Shown piece by piece: positions 3,633 to 54,506 of a DNA stretch of 64,000 nt (position 1 is the first letter of the stretch; each line of letters starts with the position of its first letter). The position numbers and the translations under genes were made by a program. A model generated the notes under the pieces. It had not been told where the DNA came from and made no database searches. It saw only the letters and a program-made list of their open reading frames with translations. This DNA comes from Comamonas sp. (lineage in GTDB: Bacteria; Pseudomonadota; Gammaproteobacteria; Burkholderiales; Burkholderiaceae_C). The stretch lies in contig JADMKK010000048.1 in assembly GCA_015478895.1 (NCBI GenBank), forward strand, positions 1-64,000. The letters are read 5' to 3'.

Positions 3633-3664
3633 CACTCGGGAAACTCCACGCCGGGCTATTCAAA

Positions 3665-3750
3665 AAAAGTAGCTGCTTGCCCTTGATTAAAAACGCTTTC
3701 CTTATGTTTTCTATTTGAAAGCCTTATTTCATAAGGGCAAGAAGCTCTCT
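3665..3750. repeat. Long-form dispersed palindromic element (copy A)
   Basis: A nested inverted repeat. The outer arms AGCTGCTTGCCCTT (3671-3684) and AAGGGCAAGAAGCT (3733-3746) match at 13 of 14 positions. The inner arms are GCTTTC (3695) and GAAAGC (3717-3722). The core ATGTTTTCTATTTGAAAGC (3704-3722) recurs nearly unchanged in the copies at 7697 and 37250. It occupies the intergenic space upstream of the SbcD-like gene. Confidence 0.75.
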
Positions 3751-3833
3751 TTTTTCAATCGTTATGATGCTTTGGCACAGCGCTGCGGGAGGCAGCTCTG
3801 CACGCACTCGGCACCTACCAAGGAAAACTCTTC

Positions 3834-23338: not shown

Positions 23339-23373
23339 TCGCTTTGTCGCTGCACCCTTGGTGTGGCGACATA

Positions 23374-23516
23374 CGTTCTCAGGGCGGGGTGCAATTCCCC
23401 ACCGGCGGTAAGCAGCCTATGGTTGCAAGCCCGCGAGCGCTTGCACGGCACTGCCATGCAAGGTCAGCAGACCAGGTGCGACTCCTGGGCCGACGGTCAC
23501 AGTCCGGATGAAAGAG
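23374..23516 (+). ncRNA. FMN riboswitch (RFN element)
   Basis: All hallmark blocks are present in order: CAGGGCGGGGTGCAATTCCC, ACCGGCGGTA, AGCCCGCGAGCG, GGTCAGCAGACC, GGTGCGACTCCTGGGCC, GACGGTCACAGTCCGGATG and a final AAAGAGA. It binds FMN and would switch off the downstream lumazine synthase gene when flavin is plentiful. About 120 nt of leader separates it from the chosen ribH start. I see no clear terminator there, so control may be at translation. Confidence 0.95.
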
Positions 23517-23637
23517 ATACGTGAAGCTCAGTTTTCCAGCCCGGTGCTGCGCGTGCGTTTTTTGCACGTCTGCCTTGGCTGCGCTTGCCTTCGCGCGCCC
23601 TGATTCATTTGTTGCACCTCACTTTTTTGAGCACACC

Positions 23638-24165
23638 ATGAATCAGAAGACCATGATCCCCACCGCTTCCGTTGCAGCCACCCAGGCCGCTCTGACCCAG
23701 GCACGCATCGCCATCATCAGCGCCAACTGGCACAGTGATGTCGTACATCAAGCCCGTGACGCAGCCACCCAGCGCCTGCAGGAGCTGGGCGCCGCACGCT
23801 CCAGCATCCAGCACATTGAAGTGCCCGGTGCTTTCGAAATCCCTCTGATGGCCCAAAAGCTGGCCGCATCTGGCCAGTTCGATGCCGTGATTGGCTGTGC
23901 CGTGATCGTTAACGGTGGCATTTACCACCACGAGTTTGTCTCCACCGCTGTGGTCGATGGACTCATGCGCGTGCAACTGGATACCGGCGTGCCCGTGTTC
24001 TCCGTGGCGCTGACGCCCTACAACTTCCAGCCCTCCGAAGATCTGCTGGGCTTTTTCCGTGCGCACTTCGTCAAGAAGGGCGAGGAAGCCGCCAATTCCT
24101 GCGCAGAGACACTGGCTGCGCATGCTGCAGTGGATGCCTTGTTACAAGAGGTCGCTGCCGCCTGA
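23638..24165 (+). CDS. ribH: 6,7-dimethyl-8-ribityllumazine synthase, type II (RibH2-like)
   Basis: A 175-residue lumazine synthase, condensing 5-amino-6-ribitylaminouracil with 3,4-dihydroxy-2-butanone 4-phosphate in the penultimate step of riboflavin synthesis. ISANWHSDVV, EVPGAFEIPLMAQKLA, VVNGGIYHHEFV and DGLMRVQLDTGVPVFSVALT follow the type II (Brucella RibH2-like) pattern rather than the classical icosahedral RibH. The frame is open from a GTG at 23521 touching the riboswitch, but the extra 39 residues do not fit, so the ATG at 23638 is used. No other rib genes are adjacent. An FMN riboswitch lies upstream. Confidence 0.88.
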   Translation: MNQKTMIPTASVAATQAALTQARIAIISANWHSDVVHQARDAATQRLQELGAARSSIQHIEVPGAFEIPLMAQKLAASGQFDAVIGCAVIVNGGIYHHEFVSTAVVDGLMRVQLDTGVPVFSVALTPYNFQPSEDLLGFFRAHFVKKGEEAANSCAETLAAHAAVDALLQEVAAA

Positions 24166-24166
24166 T

Positions 24167-24222
24167 TTCTAGTGTTTTAAGCCTCCAGCCTTTATGTAGA
24201 AAGGGCTTATAGCTATCAAAAA
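24167..24222. repeat. Short-form dispersed palindromic element
   Basis: Read on the minus strand: ATAGCTATAAGCCCTTTC, then AAAGGCTGGAGGC, then TTAAAACACTAG. The arms AGCCCTTT and AAAGGCT flank a short loop. It begins directly after the ribH stop and abuts the SRAP-gene terminator. Confidence 0.7.
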
Positions 24223-25714: not shown

Positions 25715-25869
25715 CACGCGCTCCTTAGATCTATAACGCCCAAACGGCCCAATTGCCGTGGACTGGACTTTTATATTGAGTGCCAAATGGGCACCCGCGT
25801 GGTAGGCCACAGCCCTACTTACCTTCACTCACATTGCATACACTTCGAAAATAAACAAGCATTTTCATC

Positions 25870-25907
25870 CGATAGCCCTTGCTGCATCTGTATTTATAGC
25901 TATAAAA
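25870..25907. repeat. Short-form dispersed palindromic element
   Basis: Contains TAGCCCTTGCTGCATCT (25873-25889), a 17-base exact match to the copy inside the SDR gene (43374-43390), then TTATAGCTATAAAAA. It lies between the glycine-zipper and RsmB/NOP genes and merges into the latter's terminator. Confidence 0.72.
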
Positions 25908-27264: not shown

Positions 27265-27365
27265 AAGCTGTATTGTCCCACTGACCCCATTCCCCGGTGG
27301 GGCGCTGGCTGCAGCAGCTGTGCAAAATCCAAGACTTCGCCGCGTCAGCCAAGTAATTTTAAAGA

Positions 27366-27417
27366 ATTTTTGACCTCTAGCCCAGTACCAGCAAAGGCTG
27401 GCAGCTCTCATTTTTAC
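27366..27417. repeat. Short-form dispersed palindromic element
   Basis: Reads TTTTTGACCTCTAGCCC, a 9-bp loop region, then AAAGGCTGGCAGCTCTCA and TTTTTACA. Its right end is nearly identical to the copy at 44525, and its left end matches the copy inside the SDR gene (TTTTTGACC-CTAGCCC). It lies in the divergent gap 12 bp before the DUF1653 start. Confidence 0.75.
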
Positions 27418-27428
27418 ATCACCAAGTT

Positions 27429-42732: not shown

Positions 42733-43557
42733 TTAGAACGTCCCGGCAAACAAACCGCCATCGGGCAGGATGTTCTGGCCCGTCATATAGCCGGCGTGCT
42801 GGCTGCACAAAAAGGCACAGATCGCGCCAAACTCCGCAGCATTGCCAAAGCGCTTGGCAGGAATTTGCGCCGATTGGAGTTGTCGAATGTCGGCCACCTC
42901 TTTGCCGCTCTTGCTGGCCGCAGCTTGGTGGGTGGAGGCCAGACGGTCGGTATCGAACTTGCCGGGCAGCAGGTTGTTGATGGTCACGCCCTTGGCGGCA
43001 ATGCCTGAACGCGCCAGGCCCGCTACAAAGCCCGTCAGCCCGGTGCGTGCGCCATTGGACAGGCCCAAAATATCAATTGGTGCCTTCACCGCGCTGGAGG
43101 TGATATTGACGATGCGACCAAAGCCGCGTGCTGCCATGCCATCGACGGTTGCCTTGATCAACTCAATGGGCGTGAGCATGTTGGCATCCACCGCCTTGAT
43201 CCAGTCCTCGCGCTCCCAGTCGCGGAAATCACCTGTCGGCGGGCCGCCAGCGTTGGTCACCAGAATGTCGAAATCGGTGCCCGGGCCACCGGCCACGCTG
43301 AACACCGCAGCGCGGCCTTCAGGCGTGGTGATATCACAGGCGACCGCCAAGACTTCTACGGCTTTTTGACCGCTAGCCCTTGCTGCATCTAGGCTGATAG
43401 CTCTCAATTGGGCAGCAGCCGTTTGCAGTGCAGCATCACCGCGCGCATTGATGACGACGTTCACACCCTCTTCGACCAGCGCCTTGGCGCAGCCATAGCC
43501 CAAGCCTTTGCTTGCGCCGCACACCAGAGCCCATTTGCCCGCAATACCTAAATCCAT
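42733..43557 (-). CDS. SDR family oxidoreductase with repeat-derived insertion
   Basis: A 274-residue short-chain dehydrogenase. The cofactor motif CGASKGLGYG lies at 13-22, the structural NAGG at 102-105, and NITSS with the presumed catalytic Ser at 151-155. Where YxxxK is expected, LSNGAR is found (166-171), so Tyr and Lys are replaced by Ser and Arg; I believe this is shared by a subfamily. Residues about 50-66 (QLRAISLDAARASGQKA) are encoded by a copy of the short dispersed repeat (43362-43408), which appears to lengthen the beta3-beta4 region by about ten residues without breaking the frame. Substrate unknown. It follows a DMT-transporter gene by 12 bp. Confidence 0.83.
   Translation of the reverse strand: MDLGIAGKWALVCGASKGLGYGCAKALVEEGVNVVINARGDAALQTAAAQLRAISLDAARASGQKAVEVLAVACDITTPEGRAAVFSVAGGPGTDFDILVTNAGGPPTGDFRDWEREDWIKAVDANMLTPIELIKATVDGMAARGFGRIVNITSSAVKAPIDILGLSNGARTGLTGFVAGLARSGIAAKGVTINNLLPGKFDTDRLASTHQAAASKSGKEVADIRQLQSAQIPAKRFGNAAEFGAICAFLCSQHAGYMTGQNILPDGGLFAGTF
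43362..43408. repeat. Short-form dispersed element inside the SDR coding sequence
   Basis: Reads CTTTTTGACCGCTAGCCC, TTGCTGCATCTAGG, CTGATAGCTCTCAA on the plus strand. TAGCCCTTGCTGCATCT (43374-43390) matches 25873-25889 exactly. The TTTTTGACC...CTAGCCC and AGCTCTCA ends match the intergenic copy at 27366. Confidence 0.75.
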
Positions 43558-43569
43558 GTGCCTTGCTCC

Positions 43570-44514
43570 TTAAACTTTTTGATCGGCTGTGGCCGGTTTT
43601 TTGGCCCAGCGCGTAAAGACAAAGATACCCACCATCACCAAACTGGTGCCCGCCACCATCCAGACATTGAGCTGCTCGTCCAGCAACCACACGCCCATCA
43701 AGATGGTGGAGAGCGGGCCAATCATGCCCGTCTGCGCCGTCATGCCCGCGCCAATGCGTTCAATGGCCATCATCACCATCAACACCGGGGCCACCGTACA
43801 GACGGTGGAATTGAGCAGCGACAGCCACAGCACCTGCGGCGCTACCTGCATGGCAGACAGGGGCTGCGTCAGCACAAACTGCGCAATACAAAAGAAGCAC
43901 GCCACGCTGGACGCCAGCCCCACCAACCGCAGCGAGCCCAGGCGCTTGACCATCTCGCCGCTGTAGACCATGTAAACGGCATAGCTGATGGCACTGCCCA
44001 GCACCAGCAATGCGCCCAGCGCGGCATTGCTGCCTTGCGCGCCCAGCTCATGGCCAAACACCAGCAGCACGCCGCTGTAACTCACCAGCATGCCTGCAAA
44101 CTGCCCCCACGTAATCCCGCGCTTGTAGACCACCCAGCCAAAGATCACCACCAGCGTCGGGTTGAGGTACAGGATCAGGCGCTCCAGCGCCGCAGTGATG
44201 TAGGCCAGCCCGGCAAAGTCCAGATAACTGGCCAGGTAGTAGCCCGAAAAGCCCAACCCGATCACGCCCAGCCAGTCCTTGCGCGTCAGCGCTGCCTTGC
44301 CGCGCCCGGCCCACCAGGCCATCAGCAAAAAGACTGGCAGCGCAAACAGCATGCGGTACATCAGCAGCGTGACGGCGTCCACGCCATAGCGGTAGGCCAG
44401 CTTGACGATGATGGCCTTGCCACTGAAGGCAATCGCGCCCAGCATGGCCAGCGTGAGCCCCAGCGCTATGCCTTTGTTAGCTACTGGCCCTGATGATTGA
44501 AGGTTTTCAGACAC
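43570..44514 (-). CDS. EamA/DMT family transporter
   Basis: A 314-residue ten-segment EamA transporter. It starts MSENLQSSGPVANKGIALGL. The first repeat includes GAIAFSGKAIIVKLAYRYG and ITAALERLILYLNPTLVVIF; the second includes TAQTGMIGPLSTILMGVWLL. It is distinct from the transporter at 41759. It is encoded 12 bp upstream of the SDR gene, so a shared mRNA is likely and may link export with a redox step. Substrate unknown. Confidence 0.86.
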   Translation of the reverse strand: MSENLQSSGPVANKGIALGLTLAMLGAIAFSGKAIIVKLAYRYGVDAVTLLMYRMLFALPVFLLMAWWAGRGKAALTRKDWLGVIGLGFSGYYLASYLDFAGLAYITAALERLILYLNPTLVVIFGWVVYKRGITWGQFAGMLVSYSGVLLVFGHELGAQGSNAALGALLVLGSAISYAVYMVYSGEMVKRLGSLRLVGLASSVACFFCIAQFVLTQPLSAMQVAPQVLWLSLLNSTVCTVAPVLMVMMAIERIGAGMTAQTGMIGPLSTILMGVWLLDEQLNVWMVAGTSLVMVGIFVFTRWAKKPATADQKV

Positions 44515-44524
44515 AATACTTCCC

Positions 44525-44565
44525 GATCTCTAGCAAACACAACGGCTAGCAGCTCTCATTTTTAA
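44525..44565. repeat. Short-form dispersed palindromic element overlapping a stop codon
   Basis: Reads GATCTCTAGCAAACACAACG, then GCTAGCAGCTCTCA and TTTTTAA. The right half matches the copy at 27366 at nearly every base. Its end supplies the TAA stop of the DUF3422 gene (44562-44564 on the minus strand). Confidence 0.68.
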
Positions 44566-45875
44566 TGTTTGCCACCAAATAAACGGTGGTGCAGACGGCG
44601 CAGCGACCACCACACGCTGAACGCCACCACGGGAATGGCAATCGCTGCCGTAATCTCGGGCGACAAGGGCCAGCCCAGCTTTTGCGCTCCCTTAGCCAGG
44701 TAGCTGATCAGCCCGGTGATGTAGTAGGTAATCGCCGCGACCGACAGGCCCTCGACCGTGGATTGCAGCTTGAGCTGCATACCTTGGCGGTCGTTCATCG
44801 TTGCCAGAATTTCCTGGTTGCTTTGCTGCTGCTCAATCTCCACCCGTGTGCGCAGCAAATTGCTCACGCGCGAGACGCGCTGCGACAGGGCGTTCTGGCG
44901 GTGTACGGCCCACTCGCAAGTGCTGCGCGCGGGCGACAAGCGCCGCTCCATGAACTCTTGAATGGTCAACAAGCCCGACAAGCGCTCTTCGCGCAAATCG
45001 TGAATGCGTTTGTCCACCAGCTCAAAGTAAGCCTTGCTGGCCGAAAAGCGCGAGTGCGTGGCTGCGTATTCGCTCTCTACCTGCCCGGCCAAGCGGGTCA
45101 GGCGGTCCAGCAAGTCGGGCTCATCTTCGCGCCCGGCTTCCCGAATGGCACGCGCCAGATCGGCCAAGTCTTTTTCTGCCGTACCCAGTACGGCCGCCGC
45201 TTTGCGCGCAGCAGGCAGACCCAACAAGGCTGCCATGCGGTAGGTTTCAATCTCCAGTACCCGCTGCACCAGCCGCCCCAGACGGCGCGGGCTGACGCTG
45301 GCCGAAGGTTTGACCAAAATGCGCGAATAGCCGTCTGCGTGAATCGCAAAGTCGGTACACAGCTCCGTGTGCCCCACATGCACTGAGGAGCCCGCCAAGG
45401 TGTCGTCATTGAGCATTTGCTGCACCAGGTGCCGAATGCCTTTGTGCTCGCACTGAATGTCTTGCACGATCCAGAGGTGCACGCTGCTCAGACACAAGCC
45501 AGGGATATCTTTGAGCCACTGCTGCGGCACTTCTTCAATCGCGCAGGCAGGCGAGCGCGCATTCAACGGCGCATCAGCAGGCAACGGCACCATGAACGTC
45601 CAGCAGACAAATTCTGTGTGCAGTTCCCAGCGCAAGCGAAACGCGCCAAAGTCCATGCGCAAATGCGTGCAATCGGCGTCGGGCCCTGTGCGGTGGTGGT
45701 CATGCATCAAAGTCGCCAGGTGCTGACGGCTTTGCTCACGCTGCTGGGCATCGACCAGCATCACCAAATGGGTAATTGCCGCGGGGCCTTGTTCAGCCTC
45801 TGCGGGCCGGGCGTGGACTTCATTGTGTAACAGGGCACGCAAAGGGTGCTGGGCGGCTTGGGGCAAAACTGGCAT
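44562..45875 (-). CDS. DUF3422 family membrane-anchored protein
   Basis: A 437-residue protein of unknown function. The N-terminal region (LRALLHNEVHARPAEAEQGP) and the following beta-rich domain are the standard DUF3422 opening. The middle is helical (DLADLARAIREAGREDEPDL, RIHDLREERLSGLLTIQEFM). Two C-terminal hydrophobic segments (ITYYITGLISYLAKGAQKLG and ITAAIAIPVVAFSVWW) precede a basic tail ending RRLHHRLFGGKH. The layout resembles CorA-like or sensor proteins anchored at the C-terminus. Its stop codon lies inside a dispersed repeat. Confidence 0.85.
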   Translation of the reverse strand: MPVLPQAAQHPLRALLHNEVHARPAEAEQGPAAITHLVMLVDAQQREQSRQHLATLMHDHHRTGPDADCTHLRMDFGAFRLRWELHTEFVCWTFMVPLPADAPLNARSPACAIEEVPQQWLKDIPGLCLSSVHLWIVQDIQCEHKGIRHLVQQMLNDDTLAGSSVHVGHTELCTDFAIHADGYSRILVKPSASVSPRRLGRLVQRVLEIETYRMAALLGLPAARKAAAVLGTAEKDLADLARAIREAGREDEPDLLDRLTRLAGQVESEYAATHSRFSASKAYFELVDKRIHDLREERLSGLLTIQEFMERRLSPARSTCEWAVHRQNALSQRVSRVSNLLRTRVEIEQQQSNQEILATMNDRQGMQLKLQSTVEGLSVAAITYYITGLISYLAKGAQKLGWPLSPEITAAIAIPVVAFSVWWSLRRLHHRLFGGKH

Positions 45876-52997: not shown

Positions 52998-53522
52998 CTA
53001 TAAAAGGCCTGCGGCCTGCATTACGTCACGCCACGCGCTGAGTTTGCGCTCCAAACTCCAGCTGGCATTGGCCGGACTGGTCGATGGCAGCTTGTACACC
53101 TGCAGCCCCAAGCCCGTCAGTTTGCTGGCGTGCTTAAAGCTTTCGCCACCGTTGTGCGCCACCGCCTGCAGCATGGGGCAATGCACGCGCAGCGCGGCAA
53201 AGTCATTGACCTGCGGGGTGCGAATGGCGCTGTCCAGACTGCCTGTGCGCTCGCAGCTGTCATACACGTCCCACAGGCCCAAACCGCGCGCCAGCAACCA
53301 TTCACAGCGGGCGGCGTAGTCGCTGCGCGGCGGCTGTGGAAACTGGGGCCATAGCGCAGCCAGAATGGGCCACAGCTTGTTTTGCGCGTGCGCATAGTAC
53401 TGCTGCGCCTGCAGCGAGGCAACGCCGGGAAAGCTGCCCAGAATCACCAGCCGCGTGCGCGCATCGGCCACGGGCGGCAAACCTTGCAGTCGAGAGGAGG
53501 CATCAAAAGGTGGCAGGGTCAT
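52998..53522 (-). CDS. DNA-deoxyinosine glycosylase (uracil-DNA glycosylase superfamily)
   Basis: A 174-residue protein of the UDG superfamily branch that removes hypoxanthine (deaminated adenine) from DNA. LVILGSFPGVASLQAQQYYA and NKLWPIL carry the active-site motif, and LPSTSPANASWS forms the C-terminal motif. ARGLGLWDVYDSCERTGSLD lies between. The start at 53522 (MTLPPFDASSRLQG) is preferred over a nine-residue extension. First of a minus-strand trio with the spermidine-synthase-like and GspE-like genes. Confidence 0.87.
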   Translation of the reverse strand: MTLPPFDASSRLQGLPPVADARTRLVILGSFPGVASLQAQQYYAHAQNKLWPILAALWPQFPQPPRSDYAARCEWLLARGLGLWDVYDSCERTGSLDSAIRTPQVNDFAALRVHCPMLQAVAHNGGESFKHASKLTGLGLQVYKLPSTSPANASWSLERKLSAWRDVMQAAGLL

Positions 53523-53573
53523 GGCTGAACATTGTGCGGGCAAACCCATGCTGCATGCCCGGTGTGGAGTTTA

Positions 53574-53627
53574 CAAAAATATAGCTACCTGCCCTTTATC
53601 TATCAAGGCTACAGGCATAAAAGACTA
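53574..53627. repeat. Short-form dispersed palindromic element overlapping the tatD stop
   Basis: Reads AAAAATATAGCTACC, TGCCCTTTATCTATCAAGG, CTACAGGCATAAAAGACTA. It closely parallels the copy at 24167 (ATAGCTA, GCCCTTT, AAGG, AGGC, TAAAA, ACTA). Its terminal CTA is the TAG stop of the TatD-family gene on the minus strand. Confidence 0.72.
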
Positions 53628-54437
53628 AAAAACTGGCAGCCCACGCAGCGCATGGCGGGCGTTGTGCGACGTCGCCTGCGCCAATGCATCCACAGAGATA
53701 TTGCGCAAGGCGGCCACTTCCTGCGCAATGCGCGGCAGCTCGGCGGGGCTGTTGCGGCCCTGTGCTTGGCCTGCGGCGCGCTCTTGGGCCGTGGTGTAGA
53801 TCCAGTGGGGTTGAATGTCGGGCGCATCGGTTTCCATGACGAGGCTCTCCAGCGGCAGCGTGGCCGCCAGCTCGCGCAGCTTGAGCGCGCGCTCATACGT
53901 CACCGCACCGCCAAAACCCAGCTTGAAACCCAGCTCGATAAACGCCTGCGCCTGCTGCGCGCTGCCATTAAAAGCATGGGCAATGCCGCCCACCACCGGC
54001 CTGGCGCGCAGGGTTTTGAGCAATCGGTCGCTGCTCTTGCGCACATGCAAGATCACGGGCAAGCCAAAATCACGGGCAACTTGAATTTGCTGCTCGTAAA
54101 ACCAGATTTGCCGCTGCGCATCAAGCCCCGGCACGAAAAAATCCAGGCCTATTTCGCCCACCGCCACCAAGTGTGGATCGCTTTGCACTTCGTCCAGCAG
54201 CGCCCTCAATGCACCAATATCGCTGTCTTGCGCATGCGGGGTGTACAGCGGGTGGATGCCCAGCGCGTAACTGTCACCGTGCCGGTGCGCCAACGCGATT
54301 ACCTCGCGCCAGTGCGCACGGGTTACGGCCGGAATCACGATGTGCCCGACACCTGCTGCCTGCGCCGCCGCACGTACGGCATTGCGGTCCGCATCAAACT
54401 CGGCAGCGTCCAGGTGGCAATGGGTGTCGATCCACAT
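53625..54437 (-). CDS. TatD family metal-dependent hydrolase
   Basis: A 270-residue TIM-barrel hydrolase. The start at 54437 (MWIDTHCHLDAAEFD) places the HxH metal motif at residues 5-9. EIGLDFF, LPVILHVRKSSDRLL, GGIAHAFNGS and ESLVMETDAPDIQP complete the metal site. TatD proteins are 3'-5' DNases acting in repair and DNA turnover. The last residues (PVF) and the stop overlap a dispersed repeat. Downstream of lolCD on the same strand. Confidence 0.92.
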   Translation of the reverse strand: MWIDTHCHLDAAEFDADRNAVRAAAQAAGVGHIVIPAVTRAHWREVIALAHRHGDSYALGIHPLYTPHAQDSDIGALRALLDEVQSDPHLVAVGEIGLDFFVPGLDAQRQIWFYEQQIQVARDFGLPVILHVRKSSDRLLKTLRARPVVGGIAHAFNGSAQQAQAFIELGFKLGFGGAVTYERALKLRELAATLPLESLVMETDAPDIQPHWIYTTAQERAAGQAQGRNSPAELPRIAQEVAALRNISVDALAQATSHNARHALRGLPVF

Positions 54438-54448
54438 AAAATTTAAAA

Positions 54449-54506
54449 AATGAGCGGCATGCCCTTGCATTTGCTTGATTTCAGCTACTTTTATATCCGG
54501 AATCGA
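54449..54506. repeat. Truncated long-form dispersed element
   Basis: GAGCGGCATGCCCTTGC resembles the left arm of copy B (AGCGGCATGCCCTAG), and TTTTATATCCGGAA resembles the core of copy C. The nested arms are incomplete. It lies between the TatD-family gene and lolD. Confidence 0.45.

Follow-up and report, generated by a model that had tools for sequence, protein, structure and literature searches.

We investigated a 64,000-nt stretch of Comamonas DNA (the window) in which a gene for an SDR family oxidoreductase carries, in frame with its ORF, a copy of an imperfect palindromic element of ~55 bp. The gene, the repeat copy within it and the codons that set the encoded protein apart from its shorter orthologues are as follows.

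42733..43557, minus strand: ORF of an SDR family oxidoreductase, 274 aa (Pfam adh_short_C2, E 1.2e-35; PDB relatives 5vps and 5idx)
43359..43413 (R1 match: 43360-43414), minus strand: in-frame copy of the ~55-bp palindromic element, SDR residues ~49-66, located by the R1 covariance model and a profile
43363..43389, minus strand: codons of SDR residues 57-65, the nine residues absent from 265-aa Comamonas orthologues according to orthologue and PDB alignment

The covariance model R1 was built from an alignment of 18 copies, none of which is any of the 11 coding copies described below. R1 scores the SDR copy at 41 bits (E 2.2e-5 for the whole genome), and a profile from 150 copies outside the 11 genes scores it at 21.9 bits, a value reached by 0 of 1,000 synonymous recodings, bearing out the proposal of a first-pass annotation that a repeat element sits in frame inside this gene. 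The segment had also seemed about ten residues too long, and it indeed exceeds that of the 265-aa Comamonas orthologues by nine residues and that of PDB 5vps and 5idx, in the two alignments shown, by ten. A clean gap in orthologues was the proposed test; the gap found measures 27-30 nt against ~18 codons (~55 nt) for the element, so that the element exceeds the length difference. In a predicted structural model (pLDDT ~94-96), the element would fall at the last turns of helix 41-62 and in the loop before strand 69-73.

The SDR copy belongs to a large family in the studied Comamonas genome (G000; 3.2 Mb in 61 contigs), whose place in the genus rests on SDR rows of G036, G024 and G012 that equal those of records named Comamonas across all columns compared. 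Searching G000 with the SDR segment returned 23 places including itself at E up to 10, and R1 produced 150 scored matches out of 2,106 first-look candidates, all with E < 1e-3, at least two pairs of these matches being a single place counted on both strands. A profile search of stretches fetched from G000, which had been selected for containing element hits, yielded 162 non-overlapping copies, including partial ones, at E < 0.01. In all, this genome has ~160 recognised copies of what is a REP-like hairpin element, the stretch in the SDR gene among them. Its consensus, TTCAAAATTAATAGCTACTAGCCCTTGCTGCATAAGGGCTAGAGGCCTATTTGACTTAAAA, is ~55 bp long with 40% GC in G000, carries ~47 bits of information (0.85 bits x 55 positions) and has the stem AGCCCTT/AAGGGCT (CTAGCCCTT...AAGGGCTAG) with the stem foot CTAG. 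Elsewhere in the genus, 28 of 36 further genomes have R1 matches, against 0 of 24 genomes of other families, both counts being lower bounds because of stricter filters and a model trained on G000.

Most of the ~160 copies are extragenic and typically lie right past stop codons. By gene calls based on codon usage and not curated, the genes on either side are tandem for 93 of the 162 copies, convergent for 35 and divergent for 12, and a further 11 copies are inside genes and 11 near stretch ends. Copies of the tandem class begin at a median of 15 nt past the upstream stop, in either orientation (49 same strand, 44 opposite). Further copies and fragments in the window are listed below.

24167..24222, minus strand: intergenic copy beginning 2 nt past the stop of ORF 23521-24165 (42.2 bits, E 1.3e-10)
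53570..53630, plus strand: copy between minus-strand ORFs 52998-53549 and 53625-54470, overlapping the 3' end of the 53625-54470 ORF (35.0 bits)
27359..27418, minus strand: copy cited in the first-pass annotation (27366; 27.9 to 33.0 bits)
3659..3693, plus strand: half element facing the 3722..3756 half (20-22 bits)
3722..3756, minus strand: half element on the opposite strand to 3659..3693 (18-22 bits)
44539..44567, minus strand: partial copy immediately upstream of an EamA transporter gene (43570-44514, minus strand; Pfam EamA) (12-18 bits, E 0.007-0.4)
25859..25906, minus strand: degenerate fragment containing the 17-mer TAGCCCTTGCTGCATCT (E ~170; below family-profile recognition)

The first reading had named two sister copies of the SDR element, of which the one at 27366 is a true family member and the one at 25873 is a degenerate fragment only, scoring 3.4 bits. 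The 17-base identity that it reported for the latter is exact, linking 43374-43390 with 25873-25889, and a scan of the window allowing up to 3 mismatches revealed no third match (0.20 further matches expected by chance). The half elements at 3659-3693 and 3722-3756 form an inverted pair with 28 nt between them. An FMN riboswitch (23371-23524, 108.6 bits) lies upstream of ORF 23521-24165, the ORF that the intergenic copy at 24167-24222 follows, and a tRNA truncated by the window edge occupies 1-55 on the minus strand. Rfam returned no match to the element in the window at gathering score, and none in seven element loci at E up to 1.

In-frame copies are carried by at least 11 genes of G000, all eleven with Pfam domains: SDR, AroE, a Sulf_transp protein, PurL, PrmB, an LRR-kinase, a CobC-like histidine phosphatase, a fused carboxyltransferase C-D/A-B, MutL, SelO and a CysN-like GTPase, whose copy lies at the protein's N-terminus. 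The names PrmB (Pfam: methyltransferase), CobC-like and CysN-like were assigned by inference, and when more coding signal was demanded of the flanks, ten of the 11 remained and the GTPase dropped out. With the profile from copies outside these genes, all 11 coding copies score 21-50 bits, none of 1,000 synonymous recodings per peptide equalled the observed score, and 2.72 Mb of recoded window CDS held no match of at least 20 bits (best 9.3 bits). Relaxed ORF candidates without a Pfam domain (L003, L198, L163, L042, L189, L045 and L146) were dropped, and L043 was set aside, its element preceding the HAD domain. In the fused carboxyltransferase (L157:77-1840, minus strand), the in-frame element lies in the linker between both domains. 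Orthologue comparisons covered SDR, AroE, SelO, PrmB, CobC and MutL; for MutL, 26 of 30 loci could be aligned and the linker is highly variable.

Orthologue loci were the best 30 places per search for SDR, AroE, SelO and PrmB and all 24 for CobC, supplemented for SDR by the best 80 of 566 named relatives. Element signal was scored with a profile whose training set combined 25 of the 150 G000 copies with copies from stretches of three relatives and with others flanking SDR loci, some of which sit at a transporter gene's start. The 30 best Comamonas SDR loci comprise forms of 274-275 aa and of 265 aa. Among the best 80 of 566 named relatives, a similarly extended segment is found in most Acidovorax, in Giesbergeria and Simplicispira and in one Diaphorobacter, and a segment of middle length in most Polaromonas and Rhodoferax. 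Element-like DNA occupies the same SDR codons in all six of these genera, leaving a recent clean insertion in this gene unsupported. Of 110 orthologue rows, 32, belonging to several Comamonadaceae genera, have a signal that exceeds the synonymous null, indicating that the SDR site is old (the rows represent 106 distinct genes, 30 of them distinct with signal, and all rows were retained in the test).

Signal in the SDR orthologues tracks loop length, occurring in 22 of 44 long loops (>=34 residues), 10 of 25 middle loops (28-30) and 0 of 41 short loops (<=27), that is, in 32 of 69 extended versus 0 of 41 short loops (Fisher 1e-8). Ten outgroup rows (eight from other families, two divergent ones from the same genus) include nine with loops of 24-25 residues and one of 45. 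The loop extension is tied to the element, yet it is older than this species. On an SDR tree computed with the loop columns left out, 17 changes are required to explain where the element is present (28.5 on average after shuffling), implying that losses or gains are frequent; the 265-aa clade (12 rows) adjoins the G000 group on this tree and has likely lost the element. Outside G000, signal at the SDR site is present in 5 of 18 relatives with at least nine R1 matches versus 0 of 11 with fewer, and the SDR score shows no rank correlation with genome copy number (rho 0.11).

Copies also accompany SDR in other species. In species of the 265-aa clade, an intergenic copy with strongly diverged arms stands at a common place upstream of SDR, found by profile in L021, L022, L026, L029 and L032 and seen by eye in L017, L020, L023-L025 and L028. 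Other loci (L062, L064, L069, L075, L098, L104, L105, L110, L114, L127, L128 and L132) have copies ~1.0-1.2 kb upstream of SDR at a common place near the 5' end of a putative transporter gene, and in some of these the element may code for the transporter's N-terminus, if the gene and its reading frame are as we read them.

Segment lengths in the other comparable enzymes follow a different pattern, with no gain in G000 over nearly all its Comamonas relatives. The SelO segment has 33 residues in 19 of 19 Comamonas rows including G000, and the PrmB segment has 33 in 23 of 24. CobC is shorter in G000 (33 residues) than in the remaining 22 Comamonas rows (35-37), and AroE has 34 residues in 14 of 24 Comamonas rows including G000, 38 in nine and 33 in one. 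The expectation of clean gaps in element-free relatives thus failed within Comamonas for all four proteins. The nine longer AroE carry 4 extra residues that read like the element tail, and 8 of the nine have signal. In other families, the SelO segment is mostly longer, at 35 residues (8 of 11 rows) or 42 (two rows), with one row at 30; the PrmB segment has 31 (6 of 6 rows) versus 33 in G000; and the AroE segment has 30-35 (6 rows) versus 34 in G000. Since these PrmB and AroE segments tend to be shorter than in G000, both genes may have undergone a small, old insertion.

Element signal beyond the synonymous null was detected in 11 of 30 AroE, 8 of 30 SelO, 15 of 30 PrmB and 6 of 24 CobC rows, all of them Comamonas, and its distribution follows the abundance of the repeat. 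With G000 left out, relatives with at least nine R1 matches, a cut chosen by us, have signal in 10 of 13 cases for AroE, 7 of 11 for SelO, 12 of 13 for PrmB and 5 of 13 for CobC, versus 0 of 10, 0 of 7, 2 of 10 and 0 of 9, respectively, in relatives with fewer. Coding-site scores likewise rise with genome copy number (rho 0.80 for AroE, 0.90 for SelO, 0.61 for PrmB and 0.55 for CobC). Where G000 differs from most of four relatives in the four coding copies, 22 changes bring the sequence closer to the G000 consensus, 7 take it further away and 4 do neither; the SelO share of these is 5 closer and 4 further away. A run of 14 residues in SelO differs at 8 from the nearest relative, G010, as would be expected of tract replacement. 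CobC retains the ancestral peptide LQRC with element-like synonymous codons, a retention that could reflect selection in place as well as conversion.

The element is spelled differently in different genomes. The left-arm stem is GCGCTT in the copies of G024 and G016 and mostly GTCCTT in G001, and the 162 copies of G000 comprise 106 with GCCCTT, 3 with GCGCTT and 53 with neither. Each of four genomes was given a profile of its own copies, equal in size to the others, and 15 coding sites from four genes of these genomes were scored against all of them; the dialects of G024, G001 and G016 rest on 13, 9 and 8 copies found with the G000-trained model. Twelve of the 15 sites match their own genome's dialect best, by profile HMM and position matrices alike; 200 sets of synonymous recodings that preserved gene codon use, protein and base composition gave a mean of 5.3 and a maximum of 9. 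The three failures are PrmB in G016 and CobC in G016 and G001. The four compared genomes differ in stem and loop spelling, and orthologous coding copies mostly follow the spelling of their own genome. In the parts of the open-access PMC literature consulted, we found no account of coding copies following a genome's repeat dialect without insertion.

Paired stem changes are visible at an orthologous site near cobC that in G000 is not part of any called gene. With position and orientation unchanged, this site reads GCCCTT/AAGGGC in G000, GCGCTT/AAGCGC in G016 and GTCCTT/AAGGAC in G001, each being the dialect of its own genome, and weaker matches are present in G002, G003, G010 and G022. The dialects suggest that dispersed copies, and the coding ones with them, are being made uniform within each genome, by a mechanism that we infer.

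The explanation that we favour, with confidence and doubt in equal measure, is that old REP-like element sites are kept homogenised within a genome, coding copies included, with protein selection filtering the results. A homogenising process would continually rewrite element copies inside a genome, most probably through ectopic, non-reciprocal conversion of short tracts between copies, and coding copies would survive protein selection only in tolerant loops or linkers and in stop-free frames. In SDR, an early copy would additionally have lengthened the loop; in SelO, in CobC and, within Comamonas, in PrmB, the element would have taken over pre-existing codons. Somewhat more hesitantly, with doubt having the slight upper hand, we propose that this family-wide hairpin repeat represents concerted evolution reaching protein genes, in which existing enzyme codons are overwritten without insertion and stem changes in a lineage carry the coding copies of unrelated genes along, altering amino acids. 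The evidence for conversion is all comparative, drawn from one genome per species with no event caught directly, and fifty bp is short for homologous conversion, which counts against this reading. Also weighing against it are the three coding sites that miss their own dialect, the SelO polarity count, the LQRC codons of CobC, the PrmB and AroE lengths of other families, the lack of correlation between SDR score and copy number, the 17 changes on the SDR tree and the small numbers of copies behind three of the dialects.

The rival that survives best, which we regard as unlikely although a serious contender, is that selection or biased uptake acts on the element as a DNA or RNA site, such as a terminator, a protein-binding site or an uptake-like sequence with dialects, and that point mutation, with no copying of tracts, produces the observed spellings. 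The occurrence of the element in either orientation near 3' ends, the conserved LQRC peptide of CobC with its element-like codons and the increase of site scores with copy number in AroE, SelO, PrmB and CobC would all suit such a site, and the DNA uptake sequences of Neisseriaceae, in the parts of PMC3630211 that concern them, show both dialects and intragenic copies. An element of ~47 bits is nevertheless too long for easy origin by point mutation, and any change in a trans factor would need matching changes in a large number of stems. Uptake sequences reach densities far above that of this element, and ~160 recognised copies in 3.2 Mb, with 11 of 162 in genes, are far sparser. We favour short-tract conversion over a drive by selection or uptake that works through point mutation, given the length of the unit and its block-wise change in SelO.

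Clearly less probable again is a selfish element of the Rickettsia palindromic element (RPE) type, with in-frame insertions of various ages that each lengthened its gene. This proposal draws on the additional 9-10 residues of the SDR loop, on the restriction of SDR signal to extended loops and the short loops of nine of ten outgroup rows, on the element-tail-like residues in nine Comamonas AroE, and on the mostly shorter PrmB and AroE segments of other families. The lack of a length gain in G000 (SelO 19 of 19 rows, PrmB 23 of 24, AroE 14 of 24, CobC shorter) contradicts it in SelO and CobC and, as far as Comamonas goes, in PrmB and AroE as well, and matching dialects at orthologous sites would be unexpected from independent old insertions. 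Finally, that peptides are coded fortuitously by repeat-like DNA, through chance or protein-level similarity, can be dismissed as having next to no probability, for although the SDR copy is among the weaker coding copies, the genome-wide E value from a model built without it and the recoding nulls for all 11 copies and for the bulk CDS refute it.

Parts of this family are already in print. The section on motifs in PMC5217627 reports a motif pair in Acidovorax ebreus, GCTTAT(N)5AAGCG, with 114 copies of which 5 are in genes, and one in Polaromonas naphthalenivorans, ATAGCT(N)22CAAAAG, with 125 copies of which 18 are in genes, each as a potential novel motif, the former unexplained. By its letters, the Acidovorax ebreus motif is of the same repeat family, so that the repeat itself has been published, and an exact GCTTAT(N)5AAGCG is present in two SDR genes, L059 and L089; the Polaromonas motif probably belongs to the family as well, given that its ATAGCT half matches the element consensus. 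Like the element, these motifs are tandem or convergent, mostly within ~50 bp of genes and in a few cases intragenic. That section gives motif counts and placement and does not cover coding orthologues, dialects or mechanism. Beyond these motif pairs, we found no account of the element in the parts of the open-access PMC literature consulted; palindromic-repeat mentions in the relevant passages of PMC2755013 concern CRISPR.

In-frame copies have precedents in RPE and REP, going by the portions of the literature cited here. RPE, described in passages of PMC2229807 as insertions of 105-146 bp, resemble the element in being palindromic and in occurring both between genes and in frame within conserved proteins. 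The likeness to RPE drawn in the first-pass annotation holds for the in-frame copy, the extended loop and the presence of copies in several further proteins, and breaks down over a recent clean insertion; the element also differs in its length of ~55 bp and in the absence of a G000 length gain in SelO, PrmB, CobC and AroE over nearly all Comamonas relatives. REPs of the GTAG/CGTC type, as treated in sections of PMC3733652, share small palindromes near 3' ends, tandem or convergent intergenic placement and some copies within ORFs, and two Xanthomonas have REPs at a similar position in recB. The stem foot of the element is CTAG, neither GTAG nor CGTC, and in contrast to REPs the element has no RAYT transposase gene linked to it in the loci fetched. 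A Y1_Tnp protein is encoded once in 22 of 25 Comamonas genomes, not at all in two and twice in one (G000:C8:87206-87433 in the studied genome; L414-L426 in relatives), and among 13 fetched Y1_Tnp loci, 12 lack the element, one has it ~2.4 kb away and none is flanked by it, leaving RAYT-driven mobilisation unsupported.

With the DNA uptake sequences of Neisseriaceae, going by the features set out in parts of PMC3630211, the element shares species dialects, intragenic copies and inverted pairs, the dialects being common here to coding and non-coding copies (12 of 15 own-best). It differs in being much longer, itself a hairpin, far less numerous and mostly intergenic, and the likeness is one of sequence features. 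The beta-proteobacterial repeat element (BRE) of Bordetella is ~90 bp long, has 69% GC and is sometimes tandem, and the likeness to it is that of Comamonadaceae repeats that are usually intergenic and in some cases wholly coding (BRE passages of PMC3110155). At ~55 bp and 40% GC, the element is set apart from BRE by that description.

Bacterial protein-coding repeats are usually explained by insertion. The mostly own-dialect codons of the orthologues studied here point to a process that copies, or continually selects, a short non-coding sequence in conserved proteins. With such a process, molecular drive on proteins would become open to direct test, and odd loops in Comamonadaceae enzymes and part of Pfam DUF1010 would be explained. 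A DUF1010 ORF on plasmid pCTX-M3 (L437, NC_004464.2 66199-67257) matches the element consensus; it lies in the cassette flanked by dfrA12 and aadA2, which we take to be a class 1 integron cassette. This ORF contains an in-frame antisense copy (48.1 bits, E 1.5e-12 with the family profile) covering residues 31-51, where the Pfam match has its first 21 positions. Consensus matches extend to 1,743 plasmid records, and nine of ten of the matches listed are annotated DUF1010.

We checked seven DUF1010 loci from Comamonas (L438-L442, L444 and L445) and one from another family (L443). All five Comamonas loci above the family cut-off have the antisense element over approximately the first 20 positions of the Pfam model, and the two weaker ones likewise overlap a copy (7 of 7 Comamonas in total); the locus from the other family has no element overlap. 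The position of the element over the start of the DUF1010 model in both plasmid and Comamonas loci indicates that part of DUF1010 is a translated repeat and suggests that the dfrA12-aadA2 DUF1010 cassette is of Comamonadaceae origin, its Pfam motif being the translated repeat. In G000, 7 of the 13 DUF1010 places listed (of 17 counted) overlap places matched by R1.
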